Assembly (NCBI GenBank): GCA_026874595.1
Contig: CM049307.1
Location: 35,258,862 to 35,322,861, forward strand
Source of the DNA: Sipunculus nudus
Lineage: Eukaryota > Annelida > Sipuncula > Golfingiida > Sipunculidae
Direction of reading: 5' to 3'
DNA length: 64,000 nucleotides
Shown: in pieces, positions 3,701 through 57,172 of the stretch
How the letters are laid out: each line of letters opens with the position of its first letter
How positions within the stretch are numbered: position 1 is the stretch's first letter
The notes under the pieces: model-generated
Seen by the model: the letters and a program-made list of their open reading frames with translations, nothing else
The model's database searches: none
What the model was told of the DNA's origin: nothing
Made by a program: the position numbers and the translations under genes

Positions 3701-6700
3701 TATGTAGACAGCTCCATGAAGATACATAGGAAAGATCCAACGATTCCCCTCCATGCTGCCCTCTATTGGAACAACCTAAAAGAACAAAATATACAAAGAA
3801 TTTAAACTTTTATTTCTTGAACCCACTTAAACTATCTTTTGTTGTATCACCAATGGTGGCTTCTGGACTTACATTAAGGTAAAACTATGAGAATTATTAA
3901 AGATATGCTTTTGAAAATTTCTTGCTTTCATATGCTCTATGTATGAAGTCAAGAATAAATCACAGCAGGTAGGCATCCTCATAAGTATCGAGATCAGGCC
4001 AGTTTAAATGTCTGCAGGTGTCAAAGGTGTATAAAACCTCTTTATGCCATATTGATGTTGCCTGTAGCATGTAAGCGGTCACCCGAAGGTTGTTAGGTTG
4101 GATGTAGGTTACGTTACAAACCTGTCTTTTATAAATATTTAAATAATTTGATACACAATATATTACCTTACATACACATTTGCTTGAAAATTCTAACTGC
4201 GCTAATGCTATATAAAAAATGCGCGATAATTCACACACGCCAAATTAACCACTTCCACAGTATCTGTTTAAGGGTGTGACAGAAGTTGTACTTACACATC
4301 CTATGCCTTCATATGCACCCGTGATCTGACCAATGAAGAGAGGGAGAGTGGCCCACTTGAAGAGAGCAAAACCATCAGCACATATAGTGAAACCTGCGAT
4401 GTTAAACACACAGCATTAGAATCTAATAAACAAGAAATTTACATAATTTTCAGCAGTGTACACTTATATGTGCATGTACACTTCCACAGGAGGAAATAGC
4501 AAGACATGAATGCAGTAAAATTCCAGCAGCTTTATCTGATATAAACTCAAGTAAACAATAGTAACATTGAGCCACACTGAGGGCTCTACATGCATAATAC
4601 TTTACTTATCATAACACAGTCAACCTTACAAAATATGCTTGACAACGAGTATTGAATTTCAGCACTTTGCTTCATATATACATTTAAAATGTATATCTGA
4701 ACACAATAAAAAATTAAAGATGTGTATTTCTGGTTTTACCAGAAAAATAAACTGCTATCTTAAACTTCAGCAGAATTTTATTTCTAATTTCACATTTTAT
4801 GTTTGTAACTGCTTCATAAAAAATTCTAGTTCTTAAATCTCTAAAATGCCCCTAAGGGGGGTGATATTCTGTCTGACATTTACTATGGTAATTGCTACTG
4901 CCCCAGATAGAAGAAATATGAGGATTTTACATAAATATCTTGTGGTAACATCACAATTTCTGGTCAGGTGCTGAGTATGGTTATTTGGGTTTTACTGTAT
5001 ACAAACAAAATATAATGAAAGCATTTCAGAGAATCTAATGTAGTACTTACCAACTGCAAGGAACACCAATACAGCCATGGCTCCGATCACCAGTGATACT
5101 GTGGCTATGACACTGAATGGGCTCAGCAGTCGGATGTTTTGGATCAAGGAGGTTAAGATGAACATGGGCAATGGAAACAGAACAAGTAATTTCAGGCTGG
5201 GAGCTGAGCTCACCATCAAATAGCTTGGTGGAGACTGAGTTGTTATAGCTGTTGTTGTATTTATAATGCTCTGTGTTGTCTGTAATGTTGTAGTTGTAGC
5301 TTCTGTTGTTGTTGTATTTACCAGACTGGCATTAGCTGAAGTTGAAAATGTTGTAACTGGAAGTGTTGTGGCTGGAAGCGTTGAATTAATGGTAACTCCT
5401 GTTGTCCCATTACCAAAAGGTGATGGCACATCTGTTGAGTTTATGGAAACCATTTCATATTCTGGGATACTTCTGATGTTCCTTGAACCATATTTCCTAA
5501 GTAATTCTTGTATCAAGGTTTCATCTATATTCATGTGAGCTTTTTTTAACGTTGCCAGAGGCTCATGAGATCTTTTACCACCGAGTGGCAAAATCAAATT
5601 TTTTAGTCCTGGTTTTGGTACAGAATTTGCCGACTTGGCAGATGGTATGCTGCCATTAATATCATAAATAGCAGATCCATTTATAGGTATCAAAGCTGGT
5701 ACCAATGGAAATATGGTATATACAGCATTTCCAATAAATATAAAATAACATACAACTGTAATCAGTTGTGTGTACCACACACATATGTCTATTAAATACC
5801 GTCCCCATTTTCCTAATGCTAATTTACCAATATCCCCATATCCTAGCCCACGTTCCAGTGATTTCCTAAGCTTAGGCAGGTCTTCCGTTGCTGTGTTCCT
5901 CTTCAGACTCTCCCGCTGTATGATGTTGTTGATGATGTGGTATTTGCATTTGATCAGAAGACAGATACAGTGGTCTGTTAAGGCAGCGATGATGAATAGC
6001 CCTATCACACCAAACTGAAATGAACAGACATGCATTAAAGAAACATTATAATTTGCAATAATATGTCTTTACTCACACTATAGGTTCATTTTGAATGAAT
6101 AAAAAGGTTTTCCAGCTGAACTCTCCTGGCACACTGACGTACTATATCAAATTCACCTGTTTTATTCAAGTTTTTTGGTTCTGAGAGTAAACGCTGTCCA
6201 CATTTATCTATTTACCACAACAACACTGTGCTACCAGAGGTGTCAACTTGTGCATGTGCGACAACTCTCAAATGAACAGATGAAACATGAAAAAAGAAAC
6301 ACTGGGCTGAAGCTTGAAAATCTTGATTTGTCAGGTGGTATGTTAATGTTTTGGACCACTGATCGCGCCCGGTGCAAGCTTATTCAAACTCATGTACAAG
6401 AGTTAGCAAATGGTTCTATAGGGAAACTTTGGCAGATACCATAATATTCTGCAGAGGAAAACTATATATTTCAATAATATTTAAAATGCCTGGTATGTGA
6501 ATAAGCCCTTAATACTTTAATATAATAATATGTGAAAATGTAAAGGGGACACAGAAGATTTCATACTGGCTTTACAAGCAAAGATGGCTTTACTGGCAAA
6601 GTTGTAGATTGTGGGCCTCAAGTGAACCAGGTAATGACCCAGATTGACCCAGTTTGTTTTATCCTCCTGTTACAATCTGCCTGGTCTGCAGGATCCTCCG

Positions 6701-39734: not shown

Positions 39735-41841
39735 GGTTGTTATCAGGGTCAATGATCTGGGTCAAGATATTCTGGTATGCAGATTGCACTTGATGTCCTT
39801 TTGAGGTAATTGAGTGGTCAATAAACTCTGATTTGGCTTTTCCACTACTGAGACATACTAGTATTAAACATACATGCCATAGTACAGATATTTGATAATG
39901 GTCCTTTGGGCCTTGCCATTGAAACTTATTTTATTAGCAGGACAGAACATCCTGGTTCAATTCACAATGAACCAGTCCTTCATTATCATCCTTGGACATA
40001 ATATTTCAGGGTTTCCACAGTCCCGAAACTAAGCAAATAGAACATATACTTTTCACTGTGCGGGTTATTAAAACTCCCTCAAAAGAGAACTGAGTAATAT
40101 CCTGAATAGGCATGTGCAGAACAAGTCCATTGAAATCATTCTGTTCAACAGAGAATTTCAAGTTTCCACACCTACTCCCTTTTGGATCTTTGTCCCCAGA
40201 AAAACACTTTTTCTCCCCTGGCAGAAACCCTGTTTTTTAATTAGATATGTGACACCCTAGATTTAAACTGTCTATGTGACATACAATTGCCAGCTTTACA
40301 TAATAATTTGGTTCAAGCCTTGACTGCAATGCAGTCAGGGAAGCAATATATGTAAGCCATGTACGTAATCAGATAAACATAACACTGACAATATACTACA
40401 TATTAATATTCTTGTACATAATAATTAATTGTTCAATCCCAATGTGCCCACTTGTTTAAATACTCTTAAAATTAATGCAGGAAATGCTACCAGTAGTATA
40501 TAAAACCCAAATGAGAGAAAATGTGTCATGTTGATCCATTCACTTGTTGCATCGCAGATCAGCTCTCTGTGCCAGAACAAAGGTGGCCTGAAATACTAGT
40601 TAATGATGTTAATATTAAATAAAAAAGTCTTGAATGACCAGCATTCACATAACTTAACCTCTAAAATCGCCATAAAATATAAATTTTTCTATGGTATGGA
40701 ACCAATAATGTTTCAGTAAGCAGGTATTTTTATTTCTTTTTAATTTACTTGGTGAGACAAAATATAAGAAATTCATCCAACAAAAAACCTTCAGTCCCTG
40801 AGACAATTGTCCAAACAACCTTGCAGTTTAAACTGCCAGGAGAAACATGTATATGGACTGCAATATCCACACCAAAACTGTCAAAGACGGTCAACAGACA
40901 AAATATCAAAAGAGTTACACAGCGGACAAAATGCATATACCGCAGTGAGGTACAGTAAAATGGTCTATTCAGCATCATGGATTAAATAAATCATTCTATA
41001 AATAAATCATACATTAATGCAGTATACTGATTAAACTAGATTTCATATAAGCTGAGAGGTGGCAAAATAATTTGTATGTGGTCCAAAGAGTTTCCTGGTA
41101 AAGATCTCTACAGTAATTAAGACATATTTTAGGCATGTATTTTAATTACATGTATATGATACACAAATGTATGATTCTTTATTAATTTGAATTACATTTA
41201 TCATGATATGTACTACTACTAATCACTTTACTGTATACCATCTATAAAAACAATTTTTTTCTACAATGAAAACATAATACCGGTAACACATTTTCACTCA
41301 GTAATCCACTGGCAGAGAGTCGCCTGGTATTTAATTTGTGCTAATTATAAGCTAACTAACATCTAGTCCTAAATTCCAGTTCCATCTCTCAGCTGGACAG
41401 ATCCATCAGCATACAAGTATAGAAGGTGAGATAGAGTATATCACTATTCAGGTTATTTCATGTTATATTTGACATGAAAGTTTTAAAAAAAGTACAAATG
41501 TTTGGCGCAAGTCCACTTTTGATATAGGATTGCAGAAACTGTGAGGCTAAATATGGCAGGTCTATATAAAGTGAACATTCATAAATAACTGTGGTTGTAT
41601 AAAACATGAAGCCCAGTGTGACTACTGATAAATGATGGCCAGTGATTTCTAATGAAAATTAAGCGGGGCCCCAAATTATTTATAAAAACAGAGCACATTT
41701 TTCAGAGTGAGCAGGTACATTGTTTAAAATATCATTCATATGCCTACAGTTACGAGTTTCAGCTCAGGAAAAGTTTGCATCAGGATTGGTTACTCCACAT
41801 ATGTCAAACTAATTAAATCACAATTCTTGGCAGTTGTCTGT
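39735..41841. other. Intergenic between convergent genes
   Basis: AT-rich sequence without a recognised gene or well-defined repeat. Short open frames at 40745-40989 on both strands have no splice support. Confidence 0.4.
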
Positions 41842-50420: not shown

Positions 50421-50934
50421 CTGAAAAAAAACATTACTCACAATACAGACGATTGATATTGGTTATTTGATACATTTAGTTAATGGCATGCAGGTATTTA
50501 TAATTATCTCAATCTATCAATAGTTGGAGATATTTGGTTGTAGGTTTTGTATATACTAGTATATATTTGTGTTTGCTGCCATTAATGATGATAATGTACA
50601 CATACATATATATATATATATATGTAACCGGACACACAAAAGCATTCCTACTGGCCTTGCTAGTGAAGCTTGCTTTATTAGTGAAGCGGTAGAACGTCTG
50701 ACTTGTGTGTCACAGGTTATGGGTTCACACCCACATTCGGGCCTGGCTTCTATTTTCACCCGTTACAAATGGTGGCAGCAGTGGGATCCGGGGAGTTGGT
50801 GTCGAGGCATGATGCCCCACCCAGTTCACGTGTGTGACCCCAAGGTAGATTCCCACGTTCTGGGGACAAAACGTTCTGGGAGAGGGGGTGAATGTAACCA
50901 GACACACAAAAGCGTTCCTACTGGCCTTGCTAGT

Positions 50935-51186
50935 TGTAAGGGCTAGAAACCCATGACCGTCCTGTGCTGCCCCCTATGGTACGCTATAAGAACTAACCGC
51001 TGTATTTAAATATGAGGATTAATTTTTCTGATACACCACAGCGTTCATCCGGGTACTTTGCGAGTGTTCTTGAGGTTGTTTCGATGGTCTTCGCACTGTG
51101 TTTACCTCTTAAACTCGTTTTGAGCGTAAATAAAGACTTTATCACCAGAACTTAGTGTATTCGATTCTGGACATACGAAACCCACA
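50935..51186 (+). repeat. BEL/Pao 5' LTR
   Basis: 252 bp, TGTAAGGGC...CCCACA. It differs from the 3' LTR by about eight substitutions and two small indels (roughly 3-4%), so the insertion is not brand new. It contains a TTTAAATA box-like stretch and AATAAAG near its end. Confidence 0.9.
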
Positions 51187-51211
51187 TAGTAAACACAGTA
51201 GACCACTTGTC

Positions 51212-52789
51212 ATGTCGGATACAGAGCAAGACGTCCGGCCGGAGGACAGTGCCTCGCAAGTATTGGTATCACCGTCACATGTAAGTACGTTGTCAAATGT
51301 AAGTCAAACTTCGCTTACGTCTGTAGACCTACGTATGAAAGAAGAAGCCAAAATGGCGGCCCTCCAGGCTCGAGTCCGAGTCTTAAAAGAAAAACAGGCG
51401 TTAGAAAGGCGTGTTAATGAGTTAAAACAACAGACTGAATTATTAAATATAGAGGCCGAACTACAAGCCTCGTCGGCCGAGGCCAAAGTATACAGAGACT
51501 ATGAAACTATGCCTATCCCTGTGGACATTGATAATACAGGCCTAGCACCTCATGTTAATATTGAAAATGATAAGTTTGTACAGGCTTCTACTCCTGATGC
51601 TACCTTGCCATATGGAGAAATCAGTAAAGAGGCTGCCCCTACTCCTAATGTTAGTGTAGACTTTAAAGTGCATAAAACAAGATTAAATCCGAATGCTGAG
51701 ACATATACCAGTAGGCCTAAGCCAGAATGTAAGCTGTCAACAGAGGACATAGAATCTAAGCCAGCCCTACAGCCAGTACAGGTACAGGGTGCTACTGCGA
51801 TAAATAGTGATAATCACTTGAGTGAGTTATTACAAAGACAGAACAAAATCTCAGAAATGTTAGTTGAACAGCAAATAAAATCATCACTCCCTAAATGTGA
51901 AATACAGACATTTGATGGCAAGCTGCAGAACTATAGACAGTTTATATCTGCTTTTGAACATAACATAGGCTCAGTTGCAACAAATAATAGCGACAAACTT
52001 CAGCTGTTATGGCAGTATACTACTGGTAGAGCTAAACAGATAGTGAAAGGATGCATGGGTAGACACCCAGAGATAGGGTACGCAGAGGCCAGAAAAGAAT
52101 TGGAAGAAGAATTTGGTGATGATTATCAAATAGCTCCAGCTTATAAGGAAGAAATTGATCAAATTGAGCCAATCAGAAAAGAGGATAAACAGAAGCTGAA
52201 AAATCTGTTGACATTTGTAATCATATACCATAATGCTATGGCACAGAATGAATTCATGGGAACAAGTGATCAAACCAGGGTAATACAGACACTTGTTGGA
52301 AAATTGCCTTTCAAACTAAGTGAAAGGTGGCGCACCTATGCTTATAAGATCAAAGAATATCAGAAAAGAATCGCTGTTTTCGCTGATTTTGTGAGCTTCT
52401 TGAAGGAGCAGATCCGGATAATAACAGATTCTGTTTATGGTAACATATCAGATGTTCCTAAGCAAACATCCAGTCTTAAAGATACACGATCAGTGAAACC
52501 AAAATATGAAAGAAAGCCTAAAGGAGCCAGTTTTGTCACAAATGTACAGGCTACAAATAAATCTGTTTCACCTCACACAGGACTGTCTGTAAAGTGTGCT
52601 CTGGAAAAACCATGTATATATTGTGGAGATAACCATGCTATGGAATCTTGTGAAAAACTGAGATGTAAGTCACATGCAGATAAGCTACAGTTCCTGAAAT
52701 CAAAGGGATTGTGTTTCCGTTGTTTAAATAGATTACACATGAGTAAAGACTGTATAAATCCGAGACTAGTGTTCATTGTGCAATTATAA
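51212..52789 (+). pseudogene. BEL/Pao gag region
   Basis: An open frame of about 525 codons from the ATG at 51212; an upstream ATG at 51155 lies in the LTR. A coiled coil covers residues about 39-93 and the DUF1759-like core starts near residue 225 (KCEIQTFDGKLQNYRQF). Two zinc knuckles are at the end: C-x2-C-x3-H-x4-C (CIYCGDNHAMESC) and C-x2-C-x4-H-x4-C (CFRCLNRLHMSKDC). It packages element RNA into particles. The stop at 52787-52789 comes directly after the knuckles, where BEL elements normally read on into protease, so a frame change is inferred near 52780. Confidence 0.85.
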
Positions 52790-55310
52790 ACACCCAACTG
52801 TGTTGCATATTGACAGAAATTATATAGCCTCTGTTCCAGAAGGTACCAGAAATACCAGTGTAGCAGAAAATCTGGAGCAAGTGAGATCTACTTGCACATC
52901 TGCAAAGCAAGACTTCGCTGATGATGTCAAGACAAGCAAAGATGCTCTGTCTATAGTGCCGGTTCAAGTTCGAGCGAACAATGGTGAACGGTCAATTCGT
53001 ACATATGCCTTCCTGGACAATGGAAGCACAGACACATTCATTACTGAAAAACTGACCAAAGCACTGAACCTGAATGGTAGAAGCACCAAAATCATGTTGC
53101 GTACTTTAAGAAACACAGAGCTCGTGGAAAGCCAAGCCATTACAGGGCTCGAAATTTCTGATTTGGATGGTGACAATGTTGTCAGTGTGCCAAAGGCTTA
53201 CACCCAATAGGAACTACCTGTCAGTCGATCTGATATAACTATGCAGCAGGACATTGAGAAAAATTCGTATCTGAAAGATATCAGTTTACCATGTCTGGAC
53301 TCTGATGTTGACCTTTTGATTGGAAGTAACGTGCCTCTGGCAATGGAACCTTGGCAGGTGATAAAGAGCCAAGATAATGGCCCATATGCCGTTAAAACTC
53401 GTTTAGGATGGGCTATAAATGGACCATTAGATTGCGCAACCAGTTACGTTAGCTCAGATCAGGATGCACCTAGAGTCCTTATGAATCGTATTAGTGTTGA
53501 TCATGTTTTGGAGCAACAGTTGATAAACTAGTATAATCATGACTTCAGTGAGCGAATCTCGGATGATATTCCAGAAAAATCGAGAGAGGATCAAAAGTTT
53601 CTCCAAATGATGAATGATTCAGTTACTGTGAATCAGGGACATTACCAGACTTGCTTACCACTTCGATCCGCTTCTGTCAACATGCCGGACAACGGTTCAA
53701 TGGCGGAACAAAGTGTGTTGAACCTGAAAAGAAAGCTAGTCAAGAACACAACAGTTTATTCAGAATACAACAAGTTTGTGTCCAATATGCTGGAAAATGG
53801 TTACGCGGAAGAAGTGCCGGAAGCTGAGCTTGAACGCAAAGATGGTAAAGTGTGGTACATACCACATCACTGCGTGTATCACCCCAGAAAGAAGAAAATT
53901 CGCGTTGTTTTCAATTGCGCCGCAAAGTTTCATGGAGTTTCTCTCAACGATAGCCTCTTACAGGGGCCGGATCTTACAAATAGCTTGATAGGAGTGCTTC
54001 TCCGTTTCCGACAGGAACCAGTTGCCTTTATGGCAGATGTACAATCTATGTTTTACCAAGTGAAAGTGGATCCCGAAGATTGTGACCTTTTGAGATTTCT
54101 TTGGTATCCGAACGGAGATCTGACTCTTCCTCCTAAAGACTACCGCATGTTAGTTCACCTTTTCGGTGCCGTGTCATCCCCCAGCTGCGCTAATTTCGCT
54201 CTGAGAAAGACAGCTGACGATAACAAAGGTCATGACCCTGAGGCGGCCAGCACCATAAAGCGCAATTTTTACGTGGACGATTGCTTGAAGTCGGTGGCAA
54301 CCGAGGAGCGAGCTACAGAGTTGATTGTTAATCTGAAAGATGTTTGCGCCAAGGGAGGTTTCCACCTAACCAAGTGGGTATGCAACAAACCAGTGGTTCT
54401 ACGGCCCTTATCTGATGAAGAATGTGATACGGAGGAAAGGAATCTTGACTTAGATCATGAGTTACGCATAGAAAGAGCCCTGGGTGTTGAGTGGAGCGTG
54501 CAGTCAGATAAGTTTCGGTTTCGCATTTTGATTAGTGATAGACCATCAACCAGAAGAGGAATCTTGTCTATCGCGAGTTCAATCTACGACCCCCTTGGGT
54601 TTCTTGCGCCGTTTACCCTGCTAGCTAAGTGAATCCTACAAGACTTGTGCAAGTCCAAGTTTGCTTGGGATGAGGAGATCCCTTCGACTTACCTTCAGTT
54701 GTGGTACAGGTGGCTCACAGAGCTTCCCTTGCTACAGGACTTTGATGTGGACAGGTGTCTCCAGCCCACACCAAATGACTTCGGAACAATTCGAACAGTG
54801 CAGATGCATCACTTTGCTGATGCCAGTGAATTAGCCTACGGTACTGTTAGCTACCTTCGTTTTGTTAGTGATACAGGGAAGGTACATTGTGCCTTTCTTA
54901 CAGGAAAGTCCAGAGTGGCACCGCTCAAACAGATAACCATTCCTAGAATGGAACTCGCCGCTGCTACTCTTTCGGTTCGCGTCAATACAATGTTGAGAAA
55001 AGAACTTGACATTGACATCGATGAGACGCACTTTTGGACAGACAGCCAGTCTGTTCTTTGTTACATCAGTAGTGAGACTGCAAGGTTTAAAACCTTTGTC
55101 GCCAATCGGGTTTCGGTGATCTGCGATGGTTCCCAGCCCAGTGAATGGAAATTCTTTGAATCAGCCTCTAATCCTGCCGATGACGCCTCTAGAGGTCTTC
55201 ATGCTCAAACACTTGTCAGTAACCACAGATGGATAAAGGGGCCGGACTTCCTGTGGAAAACAGATATAGATCAGTCTACCCCTCAGACCAGATACTCGTA
55301 TTCCAGATGA
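52776..55310 (+). pseudogene. BEL/Pao protease, RT and RNase H, with stops
   Basis: One frame carries an aspartic-protease block (YAFLDNGSTDTFI, near 53010), the linker block GWAINGPL, the reverse transcriptase (FMADVQSMFYQV near 54030; YVDD at about 54270) and an RNase H block (HHFADASELAYG near 54810). It is interrupted by TAG at 53208, TAG at 53529 and TGA at 54630. It ends at 55308 in a frame change. The catalytic residues themselves are still present; the interruptions make the product non-viable. Confidence 0.9.
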
Positions 55311-55335
55311 TGACCCAGAAGTCCGCAAAGTCAAA

Positions 55336-56636
55336 GTGTCATCAGTCGTTGTCCGTTCTTCCAATGACGTCATAGACCGTTTCATTTCGTACCATTCGTC
55401 GTGGTTTAAGTTGAAAGTTAGAATAGCCTGGATCTTGAAAATACGTAAAGCTCTACGTCAAAGGGTCCATAGAGCCAAGGCATCTTTGACCGCTGATGAT
55501 CCTGTATCCACCAGCCAGCAGACATCTGCAGAGCAAACCGTGTCTGGTTTCCTAACTGTCGCAGATATAGATGCTGCAGAACATGCTATTTTTTCCTACG
55601 TTCAGGGCAAATCATTTCGACGTGAGATTGACACTCTAACGAACAAAGCCTTTCTGGCAGACAGAAAAGATACGTCACAAAGTCGAGTCCGTTATACCGA
55701 CTTGATCCGTATCTTGAGAATGGACTTTTGAGAGTAGGCGGACGTCTTGGCAAAGCTTCGTTACCTGAATATACCAAACATCCAGTCGTCCTACCAAAGA
55801 ATTCCTACGTGTCGACGCTCATCTTATGACAAGTCCATCAAGACACCTATCACAGTGGTAGAAATCACATGTTGTGTGAACTGCGTAAGAAATATTGGAT
55901 CTTGCAAGGATATTCAGCCGCAAGAAAAGTTGTGCACGATTGTGTTGATTGTCGCAAATGTAGAGGAAAGGTCGGGGAACAGAAGATGGCCGAGCTACCA
56001 TCTGACCGTTTGACTGCGGACGAGCCCCCATTCACATACGTCGGTATGGACTACTTTGGGCCATTCGAGGTTCGTCGAGGTCGGTCCATGGTCAAACGAT
56101 ACGGTATGATATTTACTTGCTTAACAGTACGGGCCATACACATAGAAGTTGCGCATTCCCTGGACACCGATTCGTGCATTAACGCTCTTAGACGCTTCAT
56201 CGCCAGAAGAGGGCAAGTAAAGGTCATACGTTCAGACAATGGTACAAATCTCGTAAGTGCGAGACGAGAGCTCAGAGAAGAAATAGACAAATGGAATCAG
56301 AACAAGATTCATGGTTTCTTGCTGCAAAGGAACATTGACTGGATTTTTAATCCACCGCTTGGTTCTCACCATGGAGGTGTCTGGGAGCGCCAGATTAGGA
56401 CAATTCGACAAGTTTTGAGTGTGCTTCTGAGAAATCAAACTGTTGACGATGAGTGCCTGAACACATTTATGTGTGAAGTAGAAGCCACAGTCAATTCGAG
56501 ACCTATTACGAGGGTGTCTGCGGATCCTGATGATTCCGAGGCCTTGACACCTAATCATTTGTTATTGCTCAAGACTGAAGCATCCCTGCCTCCAGGTACG
56601 TTCGAGAAAGAGGATGTTTACTCTAGACGGAGGTAA
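55336..56636 (+). pseudogene. BEL/Pao integrase region, frameshifted and truncated
   Basis: Two frames: 55336-55731 and 55869-56636. The second has a Cys pair (CVDCRKC), D in GMDYFGPF, D in RSDNGTN and E in GGVWERQIR, i.e. the D,D,E triad, then TVNSRPITR. The stop follows shortly after the NHLLLLK block. The DUF5641-like tail usual in BEL integrases is absent before the polypurine tract, so the 3' part was lost. Confidence 0.85.
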
Positions 56637-56789
56637 AGACTGTGAAGGTCTAGTGAATGCCTATCTTTTCGAATACTTTCGAATATGTAACTTGCGCACT
56701 TTTTCGAGAATTTACGTTTGTTTGTAATGTTGATTACATTCACATGTGATGATATAAGATAATTATCTTCAGCCTTGCTTTAGATAATT

Positions 56790-56801
56790 AAGGGGCCGGT
56801 A
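56790..56801 (+). other. BEL/Pao polypurine tract
   Basis: AAGGGGCCGGTA directly precedes the 3' LTR, where plus-strand priming is expected. Confidence 0.55.
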
Positions 56802-57057
56802 TGTAAGGGCTAGAAACCCATGACCGTCCTGTGCTGCCCCCTATGGTACGCTATAAGAACTAACCGCTGTATTTAAATATGAGGATTAATTTTTCTGATA
56901 CACCACAGTGTTCATCCAGGTACTTTGCGAGTGTTTTTGAGGTTGTTTCGATGGTCTTCACACTGTGTTTACCTCTTAAACTCTTGTTTTGAGCGTAAAT
57001 AAAGACTTTATCACTAGAACTTAGTCGGTTTTCGATTCCGGACATACGAAACCCACA
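56802..57057 (+). repeat. BEL/Pao 3' LTR
   Basis: 256 bp, matching 50935-51186 end to end, with the differences listed under the 5' LTR. Confidence 0.9.
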
Positions 57058-57168
57058 CTATAGTGAAGCTTGCTTTATTAGCGAAGCGATAGAACATCTG
57101 ACTTAATTGTGTATCACAGGTTACGGGTTCAAACCTACATTCAGGCCTGGTTTATAATTTTCACCCAT

Positions 57169-57172
<4 letters not shown>

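Follow-up and report, generated by a model that had tools for sequence, protein, structure and literature searches.

A probable Helenus-type miniature retrotransposon family of Sipunculus nudus with a candidate tRNA-derived Pol III promoter in its LTR and scars of its tRNA-Leu primer

Among the terminal-repeat retrotransposons in miniature (TRIMs), those closest to the element considered here are the Helenus elements, which have tRNA-derived sequence in their long terminal repeats (LTRs) and are found in fungi, animals and one plant (Kojima 2024, PMC10886601; statements on published elements are drawn here from parts of the cited papers). They are mostly under 1000 bp in size, with two LTRs and an internal part whose ends bear a primer-binding site (PBS) and a polypurine tract (PPT); the PBS is Gypsy-like and shared with autonomous Gypsy elements of the host, and the target duplications of animal members are 4 bp long. 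In most families the LTR has a box A of the form TRGCY..YGG and a box B with GGTTC, while transcription by RNA polymerase III (Pol III) is called unvalidated in that paper (PMC10886601). Here we describe a TRIM from the annelid Sipunculus nudus that lies in a stretch of 64,000 nucleotides, C2:35258862-35322861 of the 1.43-Gb assembly GCA_026874595.1 (hereafter the window). A sequence-only reading of the window knew of no described animal TRIM with a tRNA-type promoter; this is superseded by the listing of Helenus from six animal phyla, including 51 families in pteriomorph bivalves (PMC10886601).

We regard it as highly probable that the element is a Helenus-type TRIM, i.e. an LTR retrotransposon that is non-coding and about 414 bp long and in which a tRNA-derived Pol III promoter within the LTR would take the place of a recognizable RNA polymerase II (Pol II) promoter. 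As in Helenus, its simple two-LTR copies are small (401-418 bp, n=28), boxes A and B are present in the LTR at the motif level, there is a PBS and a PPT, 4-bp duplications flank 22 of the 31 loci in which both outer ends are intact, and the PBS is common to two Gypsy copies of the same genome (L092 and L110). As judged by the published description, the family is a new or an already catalogued Helenus. Relative to the published boxes, TRGC, CGG and GGTTC are present here, with G replacing the Y after TRGC, and the primer is tRNA-Leu, whereas bivalve Helenus families use tRNA-Lys, His, Ile, Pro, Glu and Ser; a Leu primer is on record for wasp and vertebrate families (PMC10886601). The parts of that paper drawn on here make no mention of tRNA-capture copies or of T4 terminators (runs of four T) for Helenus, and a search of the available literature for Helenus or TRIMp3 gave no further relevant paper.

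Three other described elements invite comparison. Cassandra likewise is a TRIM whose LTR has a Pol III promoter and terminator and which forms tandem LTR-internal arrays (PMC7215508), but it is a plant element with a 5S rRNA promoter; a search of the window with Rfam gave no match to any family at the gathering score, and no 5S rRNA match up to E 10 in 50600-50900. Ajax of nemerteans shares with our family a small-RNA promoter in the LTR of a TRIM and a tRNA-Leu primer, and differs in that the promoter is 5S-derived and the duplications are 5-bp (PMC10886601). The biv-TRIM of bivalves is also a TRIM with solo repeats and tandem copies; its terminal repeats of 202-218 bp, inner domain of 77-80 bp, PPT GGGGAGA and unclear PBS (Satovic 2019, PMC6934838) are not features of the element described here, with its 145-bp LTR, about 125 bp of internal sequence and clear PBS.

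The copy in the window (Table 1) has the 145-bp LTR with TGTAAC...GTTACA termini, the roughly 125 bp of internal sequence and the purine tract that the sequence-only reading had delineated, all located at 50623-50892. That reading also named an exact 18-nt primer site for a Leu-type tRNA: the site is of the Leu type, but it agrees with host tRNA-Leu at only 17/18 positions (position 11 is A, not G), as against 18/18 in L012, a second plain copy used for comparison, and the matching G is found at 35 of the 40 genome sites with the exact LTR-end+PBS string. The A- and B-box-like motifs that it placed in the LTR are decayed in both window LTRs, and the exact box A..B pattern has 0 matches across the window. 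The target duplication of the copy is uninformative because it sits within a TA repeat.

To describe the promoter motifs we aligned 85 distinct near-complete LTR copies, with 49 duplicate fetches and truncated LTRs excluded. Box A (TRGCNNAGYGG) is matched in 76 of these and box B (GGTTCRANNCC) in 78; both are exact and in order in 71/85, the window's 5' LTR being among the misses, and the combined pattern has 0 matches in 20000 mononucleotide-shuffled LTRs. Of the 71 LTRs that have both boxes, 70 show them 43 bp apart from start to start, the corresponding distance in an intronless tRNA gene being about 44. Beyond box B of these 71 LTRs, the first T4 run comes after 19-21 nt in 63 and after 14 nt in one, with none in the remaining seven. 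In the 5' LTR, the run is located at position 130-132 in 25/28 simple copies; T4 runs are otherwise rare, occurring in the internal region of 1/28 and in the upstream part of the 5' LTR of 3/28. The polyadenylation signals AATAAA and ATTAAA, in turn, occur in 0/85 of the TRIM LTRs; they are found in both LTRs of the BEL/Pao retrotransposon that neighbours the TRIM in the window, and the two Gypsy copies that were read have AATAAA in their LTRs. The near-exclusive placement of T4 after box B together with the lack of either signal in the 85 LTRs fits Pol III. Motif, spacing and the place of the candidate terminator all speak for the tRNA-type Pol III promoter that the sequence-only reading had proposed for the LTR.

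The family was collected by a genome search with a 278-base LTR+internal query, which raised 692 first-look candidates, the best 40 being scored; this gave 87 matches, 43 of them spanning nearly the whole 278 bases. The resulting sample of 40 loci includes the window's own, and the query favours full copies. An LTR-internal-LTR structure with PBS and PPT prevails among the fetched loci, and the TRIM anatomy anticipated for the window copy, with paired LTRs and target duplications, is thereby seen across the family. Tandem LTR-internal arrays, in which PBS and PPT are present, account for four of the 40 loci (L005, L008, L019 and L025), L019 being partly inverted. From an LTR-only search (best 40 of 800 first-look candidates scored), single LTRs were found in four (L053, L060, L063, L067) of seven new loci checked. 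At a further locus, L115 (C12:21764306, minus strand), a TRIM-like LTR (84%) and the same PBS are followed by a different, AT-rich sequence.

Copies integrate with 4-bp target duplications, most frequently TATA: this sequence accounts for 14 of the 22 cases, and the eight non-TATA ones are TATG (2) and TACA, GTAG, CATA, ACTG, TAAA and TAAG (1 each). Full copies with both LTRs exist as had been foreseen, but with duplications of 4 bp and not 5 bp. The LTRs of the 28 simple copies diverge from their mates by a median of 1.4% (0 to 9.2%), and ten copies have substitution-free pairs, which indicates that the family was recently active; it would accordingly illustrate recent activity in a TRIM with a Pol III-type promoter. 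Mates are concordant at three variable sites in 26/28, 25/28 and 25/28 copies, and the median LTR distance between copies is 3.5%. Such agreement of mates, and a distance smaller within than between copies, is what reverse transcription from one RNA predicts.

The anatomy suggests the following life cycle. Pol III would start about 10-17 nt upstream of box A, which is the distance known from tRNA genes. Part of the transcripts would read through the weak T4 of the 5' LTR and stop at the T4 of the 3' LTR, and the resulting RNA would have a terminal R repeat of about 90 nt at each end. This RNA may then enter Ty3/Gypsy particles, where a mature tRNA-Leu would prime at the PBS and a subsequent step at the PPT would yield DNA with two LTRs; the anatomy points to these later steps and fossils in the genome support them.

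The fossils in question are three capture events (four loci) that retain about 47-58 nt of the tRNA-Leu primer. For comparison, host tRNA-Leu genes were sought with a T-arm pattern, which gave 50 matches, mostly in one cluster on C5; seven of eight sampled matches are tRNA-Leu by ARAGORN (AAG or TAG) and the eighth is the captured piece L133. The cluster itself (C5:52590730-52636314) is a tandem array of tRNA-Leu genes with a period of about 1.6 kb, in which many units have two tRNA-Leu matches. In L133 a complete TRIM LTR (92%) and PBS continue into the complement of tRNA-Leu(UAG) as far as the anticodon loop, after which other DNA follows; the tRNA complement is about 54 nt long, its end being blurred by an A run, and the locus has the form expected of inserted plus-strand strong-stop DNA. 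Loci L065 and L105 have about 47 nt of tRNA complement followed by the TRIM interior; since they share one junction, they represent one capture event that was later copied. The third event lies at the end of the L005 array, where 58 nt match tRNA-Leu with a C opposite position 34 as the sole difference.

This position merits attention, as a T is expected there from 28/28 matching tRNA-Leu(AAG) gene loops. An anticodon-arm pattern has 29 matches in the genome, 28 with A34 and one with G34, the latter being the L005 scar itself, and a longer genome pattern for a tRNA-Leu gene with G34 gave no match. As tRNA-Leu(AAG) contains inosine at position 34 (PMC13191261), the C looks like the product of inosine-34 read as G; a plain one-base mutation might also account for it, the change being a single case (n=1). 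Plus-strand synthesis of the human immunodeficiency virus HIV-1 normally halts at the 1-methyladenosine of primer position 58 (m1A58), and longer products arise without m1A58 (PMC13191261). We tentatively propose, at somewhat less than an even chance, that the extent of R in our family is fixed by the site where Pol III starts and by a T4 that leaks, and that plus strands which failed to stop left in the genome DNA copies of the primer tRNA in its mature and edited form, from two isoacceptors (Leu-IAG and Leu-UAG). If so, scars with the base opposite inosine-34 could reveal, with genome sequence as the sole source, which tRNA truly primes any given LTR element. The tRNA scars furnish direct sequence evidence of the primer, which is elsewhere usually deduced from PBS complementarity, and one of them carries an apparent trace of an RNA edit; a narrow literature search found no earlier reports of such primer scars.

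A search for the partner that might supply the proteins made use of the exact LTR-end+PBS string (0 sites for the reversed control). Of 30 loci cut out around its genome sites, 28 bear the TRIM LTR, L115 being one of them and several coming from the same arrays. Two loci, L092 and L110, have a different LTR of about 600 bp that starts with TGTAACG, ends with GTTACA and includes AATAAA. Behind this LTR come the PBS block that the TRIM also has and a long frame at the gag position, for which Pfam gave no good match. Downstream of L110 on the same strand (L117) are a zinc-knuckle-like motif, recognized by eye, a protease (Pfam E 2.4e-4, under the curated cut-off) and the start of a reverse transcriptase (RT) whose nearest solved structure is the Ty3 RT (4ol8, E 1e-18). 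In other copies of the L110 family, seven of eight fetched stretches have GAGAGGAGGGG directly adjoining the LTR, in most cases as GAGAGGAGGGGATGA and then TGTAAC; the eighth, L125, is not at a junction, and the 3' LTR of L110's own element starts with TATAAC. The purine tract of the TRIM, GGGAGAGGGGGTGAA, is similar to this PPT, and two Gypsy elements of the family show, by eye, the 4-bp duplications GTAC and ATAT. L092 was rejected as a clean helper copy, its likeness to L110 ending about 1050 bp past the PBS near a TA repeat, and the helper assignment therefore rests on L110 and L117. To the eye, the DNA beyond L092 (L116) resembles a BEL/Pao pol; its match with the BEL/Pao element of the window is 67.8% over 183 bp, and a Pfam scan of it gave no RT match. 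By its termini, PBS, PPT and duplication size, the L110 Gypsy family is a plausible helper.

A different helper, otherwise compatible with the Helenus-type reading, would be the Gypsy family here termed X, which enters a chimeric locus, L005 (C3:93866992-93870268). This locus comprises, in order, a leader of Gypsy X, the TRIM array, the 58-nt tRNA-Leu scar and an antisense pol of X. Family X is a 7-9.5-kb Gypsy whose antisense pol at this locus has an open frame encoding RT and RNase H domains, and its best matches are 96-100% alike. The junctions at C3:93868291-93869641, where the array borders the X leader at one end and at the other runs via the tRNA scar into the antisense X pol, are what speaks for X; yet its LTR end and PBS both differ by eye from those of the TRIM, and the chimera would equally arise by end-joining of several extrachromosomal DNAs. 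We consider X an unlikely helper.

Also improbable is that the element is an ordinary Pol II TRIM that took up the head of a SINE (short interspersed nuclear element) or tRNA in its LTR, with the boxes no longer driving transcription. Several observations weigh on that side and against a working Pol III promoter. Across the 85-copy alignment, conservation of the box columns does not exceed that of the remaining LTR, and the conservation seen within the family therefore shows no selection; the boxes do recur across copies, as the sequence-only reading anticipated, but we reject this recurrence as proof of function. Among LTRs with both boxes, cloverleaf pairing is down to 1/4 in the D stem (69/71) and to 2/5 in the T stem (70/71), the latter compared with 5/5 in host tRNA-Leu. 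The check with tRNA models that had been suggested turned out negative, with 0 ARAGORN tRNAs in the window and in the 85 LTRs, and no Rfam tRNA in the window at the gathering score or in lenient scans of the window LTR and 20 loci, whose listed matches were for the most part AT repeats aligned to microRNA models. We accordingly reject the idea that the LTR contains a functional tRNA gene, and the loss of pairing with no tRNA called by either program implies that the promoter was retained and the tRNA itself was not. Three copies with identical LTR pairs (L034, L036 and L038) have T3 instead of T4 in both LTRs, and L020 lacks T4 in its 3' LTR; T4 is thus not strictly required.

Other findings count against further parts of the Helenus-type reading. 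Nine of the 31 loci have no matching 4-bp flank, many with a microsatellite on one side; a copy's own 3' LTR is strictly the nearest in 10/28 only, and tied in four; and the Gypsy elements have only termini, PBS and PPT in common with the TRIM, their LTR bodies being unrelated. What disfavours a Pol II TRIM is the exact boxes at tRNA-like spacing in most LTRs, the lack of polyadenylation signals, the scarcity of T4 elsewhere in the element, and the retention of boxes A and B across families of the published class (PMC10886601). That a tRNA SINE family, partly head-to-tail, was misread as a TRIM is highly improbable and was rejected: the promoter is tRNA-like and tandem arrays exist, but only as a small minority and with PBS and PPT in place, where the sequence-only reading would have been refuted by mostly head-to-tail SINEs without them; Cassandra is also known to form such arrays (PMC7215508), and the examined loci have TG..CA ends, paired LTRs, a PPT, 4-bp duplications and a PBS complementary to the CCA end of tRNA-Leu, with tRNA-primer fossils at that site.

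Table 1. Features of the TRIM copy and of the element inserted in it (positions in the window).
Feature	Position	Strand	Basis or remark
5' LTR, 145 bp, TGTAAC...GTTACA	50623..50767	+	85 near-complete LTR copies aligned
Box A, one base decayed in window; TRGCGAAGCGG in most copies	50679..50689	+	alignment column table
Box B, decayed in window; GGTTCGAACCC in most copies	50722..50732	+	85-copy alignment
T4 run, candidate Pol III terminator and putative boundary of R and U5 (unique 5' region)	50753..50756	+	
Internal region, non-coding, about 125 bp	50768..50892	+	
PBS, tRNA-Leu	50770..50787	+	compared with host tRNA-Leu genes
PPT, GGGAGAGGGGGTGAA	50878..50892	+	resembles PPT of Gypsy family
3' LTR, first 42 bp	50893..50934	+	
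BEL/Pao retrotransposon inside 3' LTR, frames broken	50935..57057	+	LTRs 50935-51186 and 56802-57057
3' LTR, remainder	57061..57172	+	box A ~57079-57089, box B ~57126-57136, T4 57158-57161

The BEL/Pao element that interrupts the 3' LTR has LTRs 96% identical to each other and, by eye, apparently a CTAGT target duplication, the right side of which has two extra bases. Pfam recognizes DUF1759, aspartyl protease, RVT_1, Peptidase_A17 and rve domains in it, each on a separate broken frame, with three of the five matches scoring under the curated cut-off.

Elsewhere in the window, a full-length but diverged relative of the TRIM LTR (nhmmer E 4.1e-11) that has lost box B lies at 6539-6674 (+); it retains the TGTAA..GTTACA ends and shows, by eye, an 18-bp tandem duplication around a box-A-like motif. 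A short degenerate piece of the TRIM LTR lies at 39900-39950 (nhmmer E 4.9e-4). An amino-acid transporter domain (Aa_trans, E 5.9e-11) is encoded on the minus strand by the open frame at 4995-6065, probably an exon of a host gene.

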